A stretch of 37,603 nt of DNA from Fidelibacterota bacterium (lineage in GTDB: Bacteria > Fidelibacterota > Marinisomatia > Marinisomatales > UBA1611). The number at the start of each line of letters is the position of its first letter. The stretch's first letter is position 1. The stretch lies in contig JABHKE010000202.1 of the NCBI GenBank assembly GCA_018692355.1, positions 1 through 37,603 on the forward strand. The letters are read 5' to 3'. A program made the translations under genes and the position numbers. The notes below the pieces were generated by a model. That model saw only the letters and a list, made by a program, of their open reading frames with translations. It was not told the DNA's origin and ran no database searches. Shown piece after piece: positions 832-6,532 of this stretch.

Positions 832-2010
832 TTAATATTTATGTATAGGAGATACCTTAATGTCTATTTCAAATCCAGGAAATATTTCAAATAAATCATC
901 TTCCAATGATTGACAGCATTCTACAATTTGATTTTGAAACATTCCCACTTTAACATTTATTCCAAATAGAATCACTTTGTGATTCTCTGTTTGGACGACA
1001 CGAATATCATGGATATCTGTGATCCGTTCATCTCCACTCCAGTTTTGATCAAGATATGATTGGATCTCCTGCACCAATGGATTCCCTGGTTGTACAGGAT
1101 CCATATGAATGGTGGGTTCAACACCTAATGCACCATGCAACTTGTACTCTACTTCCTCTGAAATATCATGAGCTTCAGCTGTGGATTTATCTGCATCAAT
1201 TTCCACATGAACGCTAATAAACTTGTCATGCCCATAACTGTGAATTGTAATATCATGTGCCCCTAAAACGCCATCTACATTCATGACGATCTGGCGTATG
1301 ACTTCTACTTCTTCAGATGTCGGAGGTTTACCAATGAGGTCATCCACTGCATCTTTCGCTATTTCAAACCCGGTATATATCAAAAACAATGCCACGCCTA
1401 ATCCTGCCCAACCGTCCGAAGATGGGTATCCATATTTCCCGGCAATTAATGCACCTACAACTAACAAACTTGAAAGTGCATCTGTGCGATGATGCCACGC
1501 GTCTGCATGTAGTGTGCCTGATGCAATCTTTATTGAGAGAAATTCCGCATATCTTGCTGTGATTTCTTTCAAAATAATGGTCACCATAAGGGTAAGTATC
1601 ATCCACCATTCAGCTACCACTTGTTCAGGATTTTTAATTCTATCAATGGATGCTTCAATGAATTCGATACCAGCGACACATAACAGAATCGCAATAATCA
1701 ATGTTGCTATGTATTCTGCACGGCCATGACCATAAGGATGCTCAACGTCAGCAGGCTTCTCCGCTTGTTTGAACCCCAAAATCACAACAATCGATGAAAC
1801 AACATCAGATAATGTATGGACAGCATCGGCGATTACACTAACGGCCCCTACCATAACACCAATTACTAATTTAAGAATAAATAAAATGCTGTTTACTAAA
1901 ACGGAAATCCATCCTTGAAAAACTCCAATTTTAGTACGATACATCTTTGCCGATTCTTTTGTGTTGGGGATGAAATAATTGGTGATGGTTTCAAACATAG
2001 AATTAGTCAT
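832..2010 (-). CDS. Cation diffusion facilitator family transporter with duplicated C-terminal domain
   Basis: Inner-membrane divalent metal/proton antiporter of the CDF family (Zn, Fe, Mn or Co efflux; the metal cannot be told from sequence). Metal-site residues are H65/D69 in TM2 (AVHTLSD) and H173/D177 in TM5 (HHRTD), the HxxxD + HxxxD arrangement. Six membrane segments fill about residues 30-225. The usual cytoplasmic dimerisation domain (about 235-310) is followed by a second similar unit (about 320-392, TDIHDIRVVQ... matching AHDITIHSYG...), making it about 90 residues longer than FieF (300 aa). The start codon overlaps the 3' end of the recombinase gene by 8 bases; an alternative start at Met5 would remove the overlap. 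The overlap suggests co-transcription with the recombinase. Confidence 0.92.
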   Translation of the reverse strand: MTNSMFETITNYFIPNTKESAKMYRTKIGVFQGWISVLVNSILFILKLVIGVMVGAVSVIADAVHTLSDVVSSIVVILGFKQAEKPADVEHPYGHGRAEYIATLIIAILLCVAGIEFIEASIDRIKNPEQVVAEWWMILTLMVTIILKEITARYAEFLSIKIASGTLHADAWHHRTDALSSLLVVGALIAGKYGYPSSDGWAGLGVALFLIYTGFEIAKDAVDDLIGKPPTSEEVEVIRQIVMNVDGVLGAHDITIHSYGHDKFISVHVEIDADKSTAEAHDISEEVEYKLHGALGVEPTIHMDPVQPGNPLVQEIQSYLDQNWSGDERITDIHDIRVVQTENHKVILFGINVKVGMFQNQIVECCQSLEDDLFEIFPGFEIDIKVSPIHKY

Positions 2011-2905
2011 TAATTTTAAATCTGTCTAAAGGACTTTTTATTCTTTCAAATGAAATTTTAGAAATATGAGTATAAATCTGAGTTGTTTCCAATCGTTTAT
2101 GCCCTAATAATTCTTGAATGAACCGAATATCTGTTCCATTTTCTAATAAATGGGTGGCAAAGCTATGACGTAATGTATGGACTGTTGCGTGTTTTTTGAT
2201 GCCAGTATTTTTGACAGCTTTTTTCATGATGGATTGAACTGAACTGGCACTATACCTTCCTCCCTTTTGTCCTTCAAATAAATAGTGTTTTGGGTAATAT
2301 ATTTTCAAATATTTTTTTAATACTCCTTTTAACGAAGTGGAGAATACAGAATAACGATCTTTTTTCCTTTTCCCCATTTTTACAATAATCAGGTTTCGAT
2401 CAAAATCAATATCCCAAACCTGAAGTGAGAGAAGTTCATTTAATCGTATTCCGGATGAATATATTGTCATTAAAATAGCTTTATGTTTTAAATTGGTTAC
2501 AGAATTTAAAATTTGAGCAACTTCTGATTCTGAAAGAACAACTGGTATTTTTTCTTCTTTTCGAAATCGAATATTTAAAGCCGGTGGAATTTCTCTTTTT
2601 AATATATCAGAGAAAATAAATTTTAAAGCTGCAACCGTTTGCTTCATGGATGAAATAGATCGCTTTTTATTTCTTTTTAAATCATATAAATAATTTTCCA
2701 CAATTCTATCTGTCACTTTTGTAATTTTTTCACTGATAAGCCATTTTGAAAAATGATTTATAGCCGACAAATATGAACCAACGGTACGATCGCTATAATT
2801 ACGAATGATAAGTTTTTGTTTGGCGGTATTTAATAAGTCGGCTTTTAACATAACAATGCGGTTAAAACACAATATTATATTAAAGAGTAAACCCGCTAAA
2901 CGCAA
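2003..2905 (-). CDS. Tyrosine recombinase (XerC/D-like, integron-associated type)
   Basis: Site-specific recombinase of the phage-integrase/Xer family. N-terminal SAM-like DNA-binding domain (about 25-105), then a catalytic domain with R154 (SGIRLNE), a lysine near 179, H243xxR246 (HTLRHSFATHLLENG), H269 (LLGHK) and nucleophile Y278 (QIYTH). It ends in SPLD, as do IntI integrases, but lacks the extra helical insert that defines true IntI between the lysine and HxxR. The longest reading starts at a TTG (2905) inside a 25-bp palindrome; an ATG at 2851 giving 282 residues (MLKADLLNTAK) is more natural. It lies immediately beside attC-like sites and cassette genes transcribed the other way, the arrangement expected of an integron recombinase. 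Its 3' end overlaps the transporter gene. Confidence 0.9.
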   Translation of the reverse strand: MRLAGLLFNIILCFNRIVMLKADLLNTAKQKLIIRNYSDRTVGSYLSAINHFSKWLISEKITKVTDRIVENYLYDLKRNKKRSISSMKQTVAALKFIFSDILKREIPPALNIRFRKEEKIPVVLSESEVAQILNSVTNLKHKAILMTIYSSGIRLNELLSLQVWDIDFDRNLIIVKMGKRKKDRYSVFSTSLKGVLKKYLKIYYPKHYLFEGQKGGRYSASSVQSIMKKAVKNTGIKKHATVHTLRHSFATHLLENGTDIRFIQELLGHKRLETTQIYTHISKISFERIKSPLDRFKIND

Positions 2906-2934
2906 TAATTGTGTTTAGCAAGACGTTGTGCAAC
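2895..2934. other. attI-like palindromic site beside the recombinase
   Basis: Bases 2895-2919 form a near-perfect palindrome (GCTAAACGCAAT / A / TTGTGTTTAGC-type arms, one mismatch). It is followed at 2925-2931 by GTTGTGC, which resembles an integron R' core (GTTRRRY-like) and is mirrored by GCACAAC at 3474-3480 after the first cassette gene. The same arms plus the CAAGAC flank recur in the longer palindrome at 3747-3791. Its location between the divergent recombinase and first cassette is that of an attI, which is an inference from layout and sequence only. Confidence 0.5.
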
Positions 2935-2961
2935 ATATCCGAGCAATACCCTGAAAATAAA

Positions 2962-3462
2962 ATGAAAGTACTCAATGTCCATAAGCGAATAATAAATCAG
3001 CCGAAAAATGAAGTGTCGGAAATATTAAAAACACTGGCAACTGAAAATGATAAAATTTGGCCAAAAGAAAAATGGCCACAAATGAAATTTAAAGATGGAA
3101 TCAAAATTGGAGCAAAAGGCGGACACGGACCAATAAGATATTTAGTAGAAGAATATAATCCGAATGAAATAATTCAATTCAGATTCTTAAAACCCAATGG
3201 GTTTAATGGAATTCATAAGTTCGAGATAAATGAACTCTCGAAAGAAAAAACCGAAATAAAACATACGCTTGATATGAATACTGTTGGGAAAGGAACATTA
3301 ATATGGATTTTCGGGATTCGTTCTTTACACAATGCTTTAATCGAAGATGGATTAGATAAACTTGAAAATGACTTCCTTGAAAATAAAAAATTGTCCAAAT
3401 GGAACTTTTGGTTGAGATTTTTAAGGAAACAAATGGCGAAAAGGAAAAATAAACCGAATTAA
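2962..3462 (+). CDS. SRPBCC family protein (first cassette gene)
   Basis: A 166-residue cytosolic protein of the START/Bet v1-like SRPBCC superfamily, hydrophobic-cavity proteins of varied function. Support is the overall pattern: an opening beta strand (VHKRIINQPKNEV), a central GGHGPIRYLVEEYNPNEIIQF strand pair, FNGIHKFEINEL, and a long C-terminal helix ending in a lysine-rich tail. No catalytic residue can be assigned. The ATG at 2962 is chosen; an upstream GTG at 2911 falls inside the palindrome. It sits between an attI-like site and an attC-like site, so it reads as a mobile gene cassette, with AAAT-rich codon use typical of such cassettes. Confidence 0.7.
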   Translation: MKVLNVHKRIINQPKNEVSEILKTLATENDKIWPKEKWPQMKFKDGIKIGAKGGHGPIRYLVEEYNPNEIIQFRFLKPNGFNGIHKFEINELSKEKTEIKHTLDMNTVGKGTLIWIFGIRSLHNALIEDGLDKLENDFLENKKLSKWNFWLRFLRKQMAKRKNKPN

Positions 3463-3473
3463 TAAAATACGTT

Positions 3474-3604
3474 GCACAACAATGGCTATAAGTAATTGCT
3501 TGTTCTCGCCTACTTCTGAAAATCCGCGAGGATTTTCAGTTGGGTGTGTACTTGCAAAAGTTCGTGCTAAACCACGCAACTACTCATAGCCGATACCGTT
3601 GTGA
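3474..3604. repeat. attC-like recombination site after cassette 1
   Basis: About 131 bases with attC architecture. The outer core GCACAAC (3474-3480) pairs with GTTGTGA (3598-3604). Inner arms GGCTATAAGTA (3484-3494) and TACTCATAGCC (3581-3591) pair 10 of 11. The middle holds a perfect 10-bp hairpin (CTGAAAATCC at 3516-3525, GGATTTTCAG at 3530-3539). Integron attC sites fold as single strands in this way; the R' core GTTGTGA departs from the classical GTTRRRY consensus. Confidence reflects structure seen directly and function inferred. Confidence 0.65.
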
Positions 3605-3629
3605 GTTATTAATAAAAAAAAGTGATCAG

Positions 3630-3725
3630 ATGAAAAATAATCTAAGTAAAGACTGGGTAAAGTACGAAGCCTACAGCAGCTCCGCATCTTCCAAAACTCG
3701 TCATCGAGTTGCACTTAAGAGTTGA
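3630..3725 (+). pseudogene. Short cassette gene remnant (31 codons)
   Basis: After the first attC-like site an ATG opens a 31-codon frame (MKNNLSKDWVKYEAYSS...) that stops just before the large palindrome at 3747. The first ten codons look like a genuine gene start; the rest is serine/arginine-rich and resembles nothing I recognise. The most likely reading is the 5' stump of a second cassette gene cut off by the palindrome/hairpin element, but it could also be non-coding. Confidence 0.3.
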
Positions 3726-3746
3726 ATTCAAGCAGTATAATATTAA

Positions 3747-3791
3747 TGAATGTCTTGCTAAACACAATAATTGTGTTTAGCAAGACATTCA
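3747..3791. repeat. 45-bp near-perfect palindrome
   Basis: Two 22-base arms (left arm begins TGAATGTCTTGC, right arm ends GCAAGACATTCA) are exact reverse complements around a single central A. The core, GCTAAACACAAT and its complement, also occurs at the recombinase-proximal site 2895-2919. It would form a cruciform in DNA or a 22-bp hairpin in RNA. There is no T-tract after it on either strand, so it is not a normal terminator. Its shared core with the recombinase site suggests a recombination site or a dimerised copy of that site. Confidence 0.85.
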
Positions 3792-3829
3792 GCCGCAATC
3801 CGCTTCGCTTCTTGCGAATGAATGTGGTG

Positions 3830-3891
3830 CGCCGGGCGCTGCCCTTCTTGTCCGCAAAGCGGACGGCGAAGAACAGCGCTGTAAAATCAAT
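3830..3891. repeat. 62-bp structured repeat, copy 1
   Basis: Direct repeat of 5286-5347 with two mismatches. It folds into nested stems GCGCTG/CAGCGC, then CTTC/GAAG, then GTCCGC-AAA-GCGGAC. It is much more GC-rich than its surroundings. The 12-mer AATGTGGTGCGC at 3821-3832 overlaps its left edge; the exact inverse GCGCACCACATT is at 5386-5397, after copy 2. Copy 1 therefore keeps a left end and copy 2 a right end of what looks like one small mobile element. Confidence 0.75.
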
Positions 3892-3892
3892 C

Positions 3893-4222
3893 CCCATTTA
3901 TGAAAAATTAGGGCTAAAATTGATTGTGAAATCTCTTCCTTATTACGCACGATTTGAATGCCTTAATGGAAACTCAACTTTTTCAATTCATCAAACGGAG
4001 ATATTGCCAAAAGGAGATGGAATATATGTTTACTTTGAATGTGAAAATCTAGGCGAACAAGTTGAAAATTTAAAAGAAAACGGAATTAAGTTTGAACAAG
4101 AACCAACTGACCAAAATTGGTTGTGGAAAGAAACACAATGAAAAGATGTTGACGGAAATCAACTGATATTATTTTATGGTGGAGAAAACAGATTAAATCC
4201 ACCTTGGAGAATAAATAGTTGA
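3893..4222 (+). pseudogene. VOC (glyoxalase/bleomycin-resistance) protein remnant
   Basis: Reading from 3893 gives a recognisable VOC-superfamily domain (YEKLGLKLIV, ARFECLNGNSTFSIHQ, GIYVYFECENL, then DVDGNQLILFYGGENR, NPPWRIN). Two lesions are visible. The first beta strand and the start codon are missing and replaced by the 62-bp repeat. An in-frame TGA at 4139-4141 interrupts the C-terminal third, where relatives usually have an arginine codon, so CGA to TGA is the simple explanation. Downstream codons remain in frame to the natural stop at 4220-4222, so the decay is recent. Confidence 0.8.
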
Positions 4223-4244
4223 GCAGTATGTATAATAATAAACT

Positions 4245-4440
4245 ACACACAACACTGTATATAGCAAATAGGGCGTTCTGAGGTTTACGAAAGGTCAGCG
4301 CTATTTACAAACACCGCCACATCGTTGATTTGGCTTTTTAGAATGAATAAATTAAAAACCAAATATAAACTCTTGGCTTCGTGCAGATTTGAAACTTTCA
4401 GCTTTCAAACCCCGCACTACGCATAGCCGGGTCGTTAGCG
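4245..4440. repeat. Hybrid attC-like region before the methyltransferase cassette
   Basis: The left part starts with an attC-like half (CACAACACTGTATATAGC from about 4246). The right part ends with another (CACTACGCATAGCC, then CGTTAGCG at 4433-4440). The two halves do not pair with each other, whereas each resembles half of a different attC type. A short hairpin (TTTGAAA / TTTCAAA) lies at about 4388-4409. The likely origin is recombination or deletion joining two unlike sites. CGTTAGCG is mirrored by CGCTAAC at 5240, as expected for the two ends of one cassette. Confidence 0.5.
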
Positions 4441-4451
4441 AAAATAAAACT

Positions 4452-5255
4452 ATGATGAAACAATCAATTGTTAATATTGGAAAAAGAGTAATTCCCCAGA
4501 ATATCAGGGTTTTCTTCAGAAAACTCAATTGGAAATGCCATTATCTATTACAATCAGCCATGATTAATTCCTCGGAGAAAAAAGTGTATTGTCCAATAGC
4601 GAAAAAAGAGTTCAAAAAATTTGTGAACATTGGAAATGATTTAATAACTCCATCAAATGGTGCAAGAGGAAGACAAAGGTTAGTATGGCATTATTTGGAG
4701 AATAAAATAAAAATTCTAGAAAATGAAATAAGAATACTCCATACGGCTCCTGAACTTTCATACTTTGAGGTACTTAGTAAACTAAAAAATATAGATTACG
4801 TGCCTGGTGACAAAATGGCCGCAGGATACTCAAATCAAAAAGGAATTCTAAATATTGATTTAACTAATCTAGAATTTGATGATTGTAGTTTTGATTATTT
4901 TCTCTCTAACCATGTGCTAGAGCATATACCTAATGATAGAAAAGCAATGTCCGAAATTTTCCGAGTATTGAAAGAAGGAGGAGTTGCGGTGATTACTGTT
5001 CCAATAAATGAGAAGCTGGATAAAACTTATGAAGATCCAACAATTGTTACACCTAGAGATAGAAAAAAGCATTTTGGACAATGGGATCACGTAAGATGGT
5101 ATGGTTTAGATATTAAAAATAAATTAGAAAAAATAGGTTTTAGAGTAAAAATGCTTAAATATGGGGAGCAGTTTTCAAAAAAAGATTTTCAAAGATACGG
5201 TTTCAAGAATGATTTTATTGTGGAAGCACAGAAACCTTTCGCTAACAAGGTATAA
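4452..5255 (+). CDS. Class I SAM-dependent methyltransferase (cassette gene)
   Basis: A 267-residue protein with the Methyltransf_11 pattern: NIDLTNLEFDD (acidic residue after beta2/beta3), FDYFLSNHVLEHIPND and AMSEIFRVLKEGGVAVITVP (beta4, helix and beta5). The canonical glycine loop is weak. The N-terminal ~90 residues contain two lone cysteines but no zinc ribbon. The substrate is unknown; similar proteins occur in surface-glycan clusters and in gene cassettes. ATG ATG at 4452/4455 follows the cassette boundary CGTTAGCG by about 12 bases. The stop TAA at 5253-5255 lies inside the left arm of the following attC-like site, so the last residues are encoded by the site itself, a classic cassette feature. 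Confidence 0.82.
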   Translation: MMKQSIVNIGKRVIPQNIRVFFRKLNWKCHYLLQSAMINSSEKKVYCPIAKKEFKKFVNIGNDLITPSNGARGRQRLVWHYLENKIKILENEIRILHTAPELSYFEVLSKLKNIDYVPGDKMAAGYSNQKGILNIDLTNLEFDDCSFDYFLSNHVLEHIPNDRKAMSEIFRVLKEGGVAVITVPINEKLDKTYEDPTIVTPRDRKKHFGQWDHVRWYGLDIKNKLEKIGFRVKMLKYGEQFSKKDFQRYGFKNDFIVEAQKPFANKV

Positions 5256-5286
5256 GTGGCATTAAAACGACCGCTTATACTAGACC
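5240..5286. repeat. Truncated attC-like site after the methyltransferase
   Basis: CGCTAAC (5240-5246) is followed by the arm GTATAAGTGG (5250-5259), an 11-base loop, and CCGCTTATAC (5271-5280), pairing 9 of 10 with a possible G-T wobble. The expected partner core CGTTAGCG after the right arm is missing: the sequence runs ACCG and then into the 62-bp repeat at 5286. The site seems to have lost its R' end to that repeat. Confidence 0.6.
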
Positions 5287-5397
5287 GCTGGGCGCTGCTC
5301 TTCTTGTCCGCAAAGCGGACGGCGAAGAACAGCGCTGTAAAATCAATAGAATTATTGAGAATACTTAAATTCTACTGCCTTTACAGCGCACCACATT
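5286..5397. repeat. 62-bp structured repeat copy 2 with right-hand terminal inverted repeat
   Basis: Bases 5286-5347 repeat 3830-3891 (two mismatches). They continue into a second hairpin whose arms GCGCTGTAAA (5332-5341) and TTTACAGCGC (5380-5389) are exact complements. It ends with GCGCACCACATT (5386-5397), the exact inverse of the 12-mer at 3821-3832. Joining 3821-3891 to 5348-5397 at the shared repeat would rebuild an element of about 120 bases with 12-bp terminal inverted repeats and no coding capacity. Confidence 0.7.
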
Positions 5398-5424
5398 AGA
5401 ACAAAATGGAGAAATAGTTCTATC

Positions 5425-6375
5425 TTAAATCATCCCATTAATTTTATGCAGTTTATTCACCCCGCCCCGAGCTAAAGCATATTCAAATGACCATTTAAGA
5501 CAGGCGGAACCAATCTGTCCATCCTTCCGTATTGCGATATACCCAATTTGAAAATCCGGCGTTCCATTATGAGCTTTAATAATACGATTTAGCGCTTCTT
5601 CGCAAGCCACTGTGGGGTCATATCCTTGTCTCATCAGTTCCACCACAAGAAAACTGCCTGTGGTTTTAATCACTTCTTCTCCTAGCCCTGTGGCAGCGGC
5701 ACAGCCGATCTCATTATCCACAAAAAGTCCTGCACCAATAATGGGGCTATCTCCCACCCTACCATGTAATTTATAAGCCCAACCGCTGGTTGTGCATGCA
5801 CCGGCAAAATCACCATTCTTATCCTGCACTAAAACAGAGATTGTGTCGTGGGTCTCATGAGGTGTCATTTCCCGGCGGTTCTTTTCCCATTCTTCCCAAG
5901 CCTGCCGAGATTCAACCGTGAGAAGATCCATTTCTTCGAATCCCAGAGATACTGCGAACTGCCGCGCCCCTTCCCCAACCAACATTACATGCTTGGTATC
6001 TTCCATCACTTTTCGAGCCACAGAAACAGGATGTTTGATATTTTGTAAAAATGCCACGGAACCGGCATTCCCACTGGAATCCATAACACATGCATCCAAA
6101 GTAACATTACCCTGCTCATCAGGCAGCCCGCCAAAACCTACAGACGTAATGGTTGGGTCAGCTTCGGTAACACGTGCACCCGCTTCTGCTGCATCCATGG
6201 CATTCCCACCATTCACTAAAGTTTCCCACGCAGCATCATTCGCTGGCAAGCCATGGTTATATGTGGAAAGAATGATTGGATTATTTTTATTTGCAATAAT
6301 ATTTGAATCTCCAAAAATGGCAGAAGGTGCTGTAATCCCAATTGCGCCCGTCTTTAAAAAATCTCTGCGTTTCAT
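5425..6375 (-). CDS. Isoaspartyl peptidase / N4-(beta-N-acetylglucosaminyl)-asparaginase family protein
   Basis: Ntn-hydrolase of the asparaginase-2/glycosylasparaginase family, made as a precursor and activated by self-cleavage before a threonine. The nucleophile is T178 in HETHDTISVL; the sequence GRVGDSPIIGAG and the C-terminal TGLGE motif are the family's substrate and oxyanion regions. Residues 1-25 (MKRRDFLKTGAIGITAPSAIFG) form an RR-containing, Tat-like signal, so the enzyme is probably periplasmic. ATG at 6375 is chosen over the TTG at 6378; AGGGAT lies about 12 bases upstream. Aspartylglucosaminidase (EC 3.5.1.26) is the best match. The substrate is probably glycan-asparagine or isoaspartyl peptide debris. 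Confidence 0.88.
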   Translation of the reverse strand: MKRRDFLKTGAIGITAPSAIFGDSNIIANKNNPIILSTYNHGLPANDAAWETLVNGGNAMDAAEAGARVTEADPTITSVGFGGLPDEQGNVTLDACVMDSSGNAGSVAFLQNIKHPVSVARKVMEDTKHVMLVGEGARQFAVSLGFEEMDLLTVESRQAWEEWEKNRREMTPHETHDTISVLVQDKNGDFAGACTTSGWAYKLHGRVGDSPIIGAGLFVDNEIGCAAATGLGEEVIKTTGSFLVVELMRQGYDPTVACEEALNRIIKAHNGTPDFQIGYIAIRKDGQIGSACLKWSFEYALARGGVNKLHKINGMI

Positions 6376-6532
6376 CAAATTATAATCCCTATTTGTTCAA
6401 GGATGAAATTTATAAAGAAAAAATCGAAGAAACACAGTTTGGCAATGTCTTTACGAAAAAATTAATTGCGAATCGTAGACAAGCACATTTCATCACAAAT
6501 CTAATCACTTCTAACATTTAGCATATTGTGAT

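Follow-up and report, generated by a model that had tools for sequence, protein, structure and literature searches.

The analysed stretch of DNA, the 37,603-nucleotide (nt) contig JABHKE010000202.1 of a Fidelibacterota bacterium (assembly GCA_018692355.1), hereafter called the window, very probably carries a chromosomal integron, one of a class in which the integrase lacks the I2 insert. An earlier note on this DNA had proposed an enzyme that drives integron-like cassettes with attC-like hairpins, and this interpretation was supported by the analysis. Judged from its sequence, the system has the anatomy of an integron, yet the I2 insert of the integron integrase IntI and the bulged bases of classical attC sites are both missing. 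Since these two features fail together, the system is not filed as an IntI integron. The features are collected in Table 1, and numbers beginning with L denote the loci compared.

The putative integrase is a tyrosine recombinase with the Pfam domains PF00589 (phage-integrase catalytic) and Phage_int_SAM_4 (SAM-like, N-terminal). R, K, HxxR, H and Y, which we take to be its active-site residues, were invariant in 22 aligned proteins including that of the window. Among the NCBIfam models, only NF040815 was matched above its cut-off (224.8 vs 220 bits); the name of this family covers XerA and integron integrase alike, and the match does not say which function applies. The score for TIGR02249 (integron integrase) was 216.9 bits against a cut-off of 265 bits, with model columns 180-238 skipped, and the cut-offs of XerC (198.5 of 335 bits) and XerD (184.7 of 330 bits) were not reached either. 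In the alignment with IntI4 (2a3v), residues 9-187 and 204-277 of the query were matched and IntI4 residues 190-245 had no partner. Between the catalytic-lysine region and the HxxR box, all 24 group-A proteins, the window included, had 64 residues, compared with 105-107 in 17 IntI, 65 in three group-A2 proteins and 68-71 in 11 Xer-type proteins. The IntI insert (about 40 residues; I2, or patch III) is thus absent from the catalytic domain. The predicted structure (mean predicted local distance difference test score, pLDDT, 83.9, and below 50 at 253-268) has no extra helix between 172-185 and 202-216, and the nearest solved structures were XerA first and then IntI4. These results agree with the earlier note, which had described a tyrosine recombinase with an SPLD end and no IntI insert. 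Its further claim of a non-IntI enzyme holds as to the absent insert and the score below the IntI cut-off; the protein is not a plain XerC or XerD and rather belongs to an insert-less clade. This clade had a support of 94/95 in the tree and IntI one of 100/100; the two may be sister clades (88/8). Two other genes of the source genome fall in the Xer-type group. A reading as a dif module or a phage integrase was considered and set aside; plasmid and phage records (393 and 40) searched with the recombinase protein gave only relatives below 60% identity.

The earlier note had also placed an attI-like palindrome beside the recombinase, and it was found there, with a near-perfect duplex palindrome as its core and a GTT junction five bases past the palindrome's end. 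Relatives of the recombinase were taken as the best 80 of at least 508. Among the 20 closest of these, 18 had a palindrome-like block upstream of the gene, ending in GACGTT, GATGTT or CCTGTT (L005), and variable DNA followed the GTT in these 18; the block was not seen in L007 and L014. In a second group (L132, L134, L135, L137, L139, L140, L141 and L144), the block lies 3' of the gene. The GTT was invariant in all 21 located group-A sites, and the mean information of these sites was 1.03 bits over the 20 bases before it and 0.77 bits over the 45 bases before it; past the junction it came to 0.70 bits (+4 to +7) and 0.60 bits (+8 to +25). A candidate attI with a GTT junction beside the integrase gene, as an integron has it, is therefore part of the system. 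Further copies of the attI-like half site were observed, one inside cassette 2 of the window (Table 1) and one in the array of L001 at about 3875-3850.

The array of the window consists of three plus-strand cassettes, one of them degraded, with starts at 2925, 3598 and 4434 and R'' boxes at 3474, 4247 and 5240. Both pairs of cassette ends quoted in the earlier note were recovered, each end once within 2800-5500: GTTGTGC at 2925 with GCACAAC at 3474, and GTTAGCG at 4434 with CGCTAAC at 5240. In cassette 1, the reverse complement of the first nine bases, TTGCACAAC, is present at the end. The middle boundary fits less well (GTTGTGA vs ACACAAC). An unassigned segment of about 100 nt (4331-4433) separates attC2 from the third cassette start and resembles the second half of another attC-like site. 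The product of the cassette 1 open reading frame (ORF) had no Pfam or NCBIfam match, and the cassette 2 gene had a weak Glyoxalase match below the cut-off. A tblastn search at 1e-6 with the three cassette proteins, of which that of cassette 2 was limited to the open part, gave no match in the other loci compared. The cassette genes had been called promoterless; a consensus promoter scan, the only test of this claim, gave 8 matches vs 10.1 in shuffles, i.e., no enrichment. The window gave nothing from Rfam at the gathering threshold and nothing from ARAGORN.

The bottom strand of attC1 folds far beyond shuffles (z −5.6, 0 of 200 as good). This site scored 95.9 bits and was the sole strong covariance-model match in the source genome; it is one of the nine seeds of the model, and its match holds by construction. 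The other two sites are weaker (Table 1), and attC3 alone did not fold clearly beyond shuffles (z −1.4 for the top strand and −0.5 for the bottom strand). The observation of the earlier note, with a foldable attC-like site after each gene, was confirmed overall, qualified by the weakness of attC2 and attC3.

Table 1. Features of the window and of the plasmid loci compared (plasmid positions are those of the respective locus).
Feature	Positions	Strand	Details
Putative integrase, insert-less tyrosine recombinase	2003..2851	minus	ATG at 2851; 282 amino acids; C-terminus ...SPLDRFKIND
attI-like site	2880..2927	plus	palindrome 2895-2919, then AAGAC, then GTT junction at 2925
Cassette 1	2925..3597	plus	ORF 2962-3462, 166 amino acids
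attC1, full hairpin	3474..3604	plus	R'' GCACAAC, R' GTTGTGA
Cassette 2, degraded	3598..4330	plus	glyoxalase-like remnant 3899-4138, internal stop at 4139
attC2, degenerate	4247..4330	plus	E 0.019, rank 3 of region, unfiltered local model search
Cassette 3	4434..5293	plus	methyltransferase ORF 4452-5255, Methyltransf_11 E 9e-13
attC3, short form	5240..5293	plus	E 0.0028, rank 2 of region, unfiltered local search; R' reads GCTGGGC
Second copy of attI-like half site, inside cassette 2	3747..3791	not assigned	perfect 45-base palindrome; repeats
Presumed cation-efflux-like gene	832..2010	minus	neighbour on non-array side
Presumed isoaspartyl-peptidase-like gene	5425..6378	minus	far end of array
Plasmid stretches with tet(X)/erm(F) hairpin sites or TpnF-tet(X3)	L167 5028-7049; L170 3874-5334; L171 3713-5341; L169 3880-5872

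Cassette ends were then compared among the relatives, where starts were read off in 31 cases and located in 26, with at least 500 nt of array in 18. The nine-base start had its exact reverse complement within about the next 3 kb in 11 of these 18 arrays, compared with 6 of 306 pairings when starts were borrowed from other loci. Seven-base matches were found in 12 of 18 arrays and 40 of 278 controls. In L157, one of the 11 matching arrays, no model match follows at that place. Moreover, R' equalled the next R'' exactly in 6 of 10 consecutive site pairs and in 2 of 90 non-consecutive ones; the four mismatching consecutive pairs were one in L020 and three in L157. As far as sequence can tell, attC-like hairpins with R and L boxes and paired ends, another mark of an integron, are present. 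Separately, the stretch 3911-10957 of L157 has four hairpins 5' of a recombinase whose attI-like site is 3', as if the gene lay inside the array.

The covariance model, R1, was built in this analysis from nine sites of about 130 nt, which were located through cassette-end matches and aligned by sequence alone. In their R and L stems, 82.6% of cells pair and 16 of 23 pairs changed on both sides. The covariation score was 0.500, while the shuffled mean was 0.167 (0 of 500 as high) and slid versions reached at most 0.109. Few columns were invariant beyond AAC, GTT and some stem positions. Two in-stem positions were A·C on the top strand, i.e., G·T on the bottom strand, in all nine seeds. A further 18 model matches had A·C at the first position in 12 cases and at the second position in 17, counts that are biased because the model itself favours A and C there. 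A simple hairpin heuristic run over whole loci gave 56 matches vs 46.8 in shuffles, and since this was near the shuffle level it was replaced by the test of starts against R'' boxes and the covariance model.

No consistently bulged base was seen in the family hairpins, whereas IntI integrons have extrahelical bases on the R''-L'' arm. According to the passages cited, two or three bases bulge out of one arm in classical attC sites, and strand choice is set by the first of them (PLoS Genet 2009, PMC2727003); such extrahelical bases are docked by the I2 helix (PMC7790495). A classical-attC heuristic gave 4 matches vs 0.5 in shuffles over 18 IntI loci, at most one per strand, and 18 matches vs 11 over 20 further IntI loci, from which one clear bulged site was kept. 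This site, L187 1810-1941, lies near a true IntI of the same phylum and has two bulged bases on its left arm. The contrast with classical attC rests on this single site and the cited passages of PMC2727003. An enzyme without I2 would here be paired with hairpins without bulges, and we regard this pairing as the most interesting inference of the analysis.

The bottom strand folded better in 22 of 26 sites. The same recombinase could instead move cassettes through ordinary double-stranded sites by two strand exchanges, as Xer-like enzymes do, the hairpins being merely symmetric duplex sites. The missing I2 helix, the near-perfect duplex palindrome at the attI-like core and XerA as the nearest fold would all suit such a mode. 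The 130-nt two-armed fold, kept with compensatory changes and few invariant columns, argues against it, as does, weakly, the energy preference for the bottom strand. We consider recombination at duplex sites improbable and the use of folded hairpins by an insert-less integrase the better account.

The link of the hairpins to the insert-less enzyme was assessed with model R1. The matches listed were 32 in 45 sources (27 non-duplicate, 9 of them seeds) and, in a second set of 56 sources, 6, none at a true IntI locus. By their coordinates, 28 of 33 non-duplicate matches lay either 5' of the gene on the opposite strand or 3' on the same strand, where for L027, L031, L036, L045 and L151 the placement is relative to the gene alone. 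Among the matches listed for 245 genomes of the phylum, a hairpin was present on 11 of 42 contigs with an insert-less gene and on none of 55 contigs with IntI, weaker matches not being counted at contig level. In addition, 20 IntI loci searched with the model gave a single weak match, the L187 site (E 0.062). Of the observations by which the earlier note could have fallen, recombinase orthologues never next to variable cassettes and no attC fold from a covariance model, neither was made: relatives adjoin variable cassettes in many genomes, and the model built here found attC-type folds near them, with only the one weak match near true IntI in the listed rows and the 20 IntI loci. Across the 245 genomes, a relative of the enzyme (E 1e-45 or better) was present in 37, the hairpin in 59 and IntI in 43; insert length among the 37 was measured only for the relatives in the tree. 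Of the 24 genomes that had the insert-less enzyme but no IntI, 13 had the hairpin, as did 11 of the 13 with both integrases; these 13 carriers of both kinds were noted with IntI counted at E <= 1e-70.

Several observations weigh against an insert-less integron class. Just one strong site was found in the source genome (86% complete, 215 contigs). Seven of the 18 arrays had no nine-base match (L001, L006, L008, L016, L017, L164 and L153), and ten-base matches were found in only 4 of 18 arrays (3 of 306 controls). Past the GTT, conservation falls only modestly, and position +11 is A in 21 of 21 sites. By their coordinates, five of the 33 model matches lie where they would not be expected; four of these belong to L157, and an inverted one belongs to L007. 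The classical-type L187 site folds better as the top strand, so that fold energy is a poor guide to the reacting strand. Finally, the hairpin also occurs in 12 of 30 IntI-only genomes and 23 of 178 genomes with neither integrase, and the sites are therefore not confined to carriers of the insert-less enzyme. These stray sites could be remnants, products of broken assemblies or sites common to both systems. The local link between hairpin and enzyme is clear, and the genome-level link is not exclusive.

The hairpins in IntI-only genomes, together with a true IntI over the cut-off in 42 of the 245 genomes, would be expected if these were classical cassettes moved by IntI in trans or in past hosts, with the neighbouring recombinase a bystander. 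However, no IntI over the cut-off was found in the source genome, and the contig counts among the listed matches (11 of 42 vs 0 of 55) run the other way. Furthermore, the site where the first cassette starts adjoins the insert-less gene, which holds for two opposite orientations of that gene, and the one weak match from the 20 IntI loci itself has bulged bases. These results make a bystander role very unlikely and point back to the insert-less enzyme.

Among 20 group-A loci, the contig ended within 600 nt of the gene in 10 cases on the array side and in 3 on the opposite side; the corresponding numbers for 20 IntI loci were 3 and 1. The contigs of L015, L141 and L144 break off exactly at the GTT junction. 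The ends on the array side suggest live heterogeneity, though repeats too can break assemblies. They also bear on whether the repeats and hairpins are a dead remnant without present recombination, as the degraded cassette 2 and the weak attC2 and attC3 might indicate. Such a remnant would fit poorly with these contig ends and with an intact gene whose presumed active-site residues are invariant, and we consider it hardly credible.

In the proposed mechanism of the insert-less system, the recombinase would bind the palindromic attI-like site next to its own gene, and strand exchange would take place between the GTT of attI and the R' box of the cassette's attC-like hairpin. Through this exchange, a circular cassette would enter the array at its first position or leave it from there. 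The substrate is probably the bottom strand in its folded form, and the enzyme itself would perform the recombination. The two A·C (top) or G·T (bottom) positions may take the strand-marking role of the bulged bases read by the I2 helix of IntI. The cited part of PMC7790495 (eLife 2020) credits the I2 helix with the origin of single-strand recombination in integrons and calls direct proof lacking, since deletion of the helix kills IntI1. A natural family that apparently uses hairpin cassettes without I2 makes this question directly testable.

The closest relatives are hosted by Fidelibacterota, Calditrichota, Ignavibacteriota, Bacteroidota and Pseudomonadota. Their genomes are nearly all metagenome-assembled and might be misbinned; an exception is the isolate Marinicella pacifica (L017). 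Further insert-less sequences from Patescibacteria and DPANN archaea stand near the base of the tree. Ten such relatives (about 40% identity) were tried, among which L050 (9 nt) and L038 (8 nt) had a match to the cassette start and, by eye, an attC-like hairpin behind it; in L034, a 7-nt start match occurred at several places. Integrons of the insert-less class may thus reach DPANN and the Candidate Phyla Radiation (CPR).

Family hairpins were also found at resistance genes. In pWB8 (L170), a plasmid of Sphingobacterium faecium, tet(X2) is enclosed by two model matches (E 5e-10 and 2e-7). The start of its cassette, GTTATGTGCC, and the sequence GGCACATAAC at the cassette's end are exact reverse complements. 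The tet(X) start on a Bacteroides fragilis plasmid (L171) is GTTATGGGCC, with one deviating base, and the site after this tet(X) (E 6e-8) runs into the cassette start GTTATGCGGCAGC leading to a reversed erm(F). On a Flagellimonas plasmid (L169), the start GTTATGCGGCAGC adjoins a 272-residue recombinase relative that is too short for the insert; the cassette with the reversed erm(F) ends at CCGCATAAC, and a dihydrofolate-reductase-family cassette follows with matched boxes. The tet(X2) site recurred with >=98% identity in 13 plasmid records including pWB8, two of which were examined. On plasmid pHH1107, TpnF, a recombinase relative without the N-terminal part, precedes a palindrome and tet(X3), and no convincing R1 hairpin was found after tet(X3). 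The cited part of PMC8635130 describes this context as ISCR2-xerD-tet(X3). That these hairpins bound tet(X2) and erm(F) in some plasmids of Bacteroidota suggests how a last-line tetracycline-resistance gene was first packaged.

These observations can be joined in a wider reading, to which we give even chances. There would be a second great integron class, without I2 and with wobble-marked hairpins, in Fidelibacterota, Calditrichota, Ignavibacteriota, Bacteroidota, some Pseudomonadota and perhaps Patescibacteria and DPANN archaea. This class would predate I2 or have arisen beside it, would be missed by IntI-domain finders and would have been the first to house the resistance cassettes tet(X) and erm(F). 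Finders that depend on the IntI domain presumably score such arrays as integrase-less clusters.

The array is flanked by a gene on each side (Table 1). The gene at 832..2010 is presumably cation-efflux-like, and by tblastn a similar gene is the next one past the recombinase in L001, L002, L019 and L120; in L003 the distance is about 700 nt. The gene at 5425..6378 we take to be isoaspartyl-peptidase-like; such a gene likewise closes the array of L001, with different genes in between, and in L085 it is elsewhere, apparently between the recombinase and the efflux gene by its coordinates. A 62-nt G+C-rich repeat (97% identical) occurs at 3830-3891 in cassette 2 and at 5286-5347 just past attC3; AATGTGGTGCGC precedes one copy and GCGCACCACATT trails the other, and the repeat is possibly a small inserted element.

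The system resembles the IntI chromosomal integrons (TIGR02249; 2a3v) in the integrase beside attI, the GTT junction, the unidirectional cassettes, the R''/L''/L'/R' hairpins and the boundaries paired between neighbours. It differs from them in having no I2 insert and no consistent bulges, with two A·C (or G·T) positions instead, and in an attI-like site that is palindromic and, in some relatives, 3' of the gene. XerA-type enzymes are dif-type recombinases. With this type (NF040815; 5hxy, 4a8e) the integrase shares its size, the lack of the insert, the only NCBIfam match over its cut-off and the best fold match, whereas the clade of the window adjoins attI-like sites and cassette arrays. In the open-access literature of PubMed Central, searched by title and start of abstract (subscription journals and preprints outside this scope), we found neither an insert-less integrase with cassette arrays nor a description of tet(X) and erm(F) as attC cassettes. 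For the integron-like subgroup of tyrosine recombinases, the insertion is called essential for integron function (Smyshlyaev et al. 2021, PMC8138268), and in the cited part of that study no insert-less member is tied to cassettes. The archaeal integrons (Ghaly et al. 2022, PMC9668308) are alike in presenting cassette arrays with attC folds in new lineages; according to the cited part, they carry the IntI-specific domain, which their detection method required, and the integrase of the window has no such insert.

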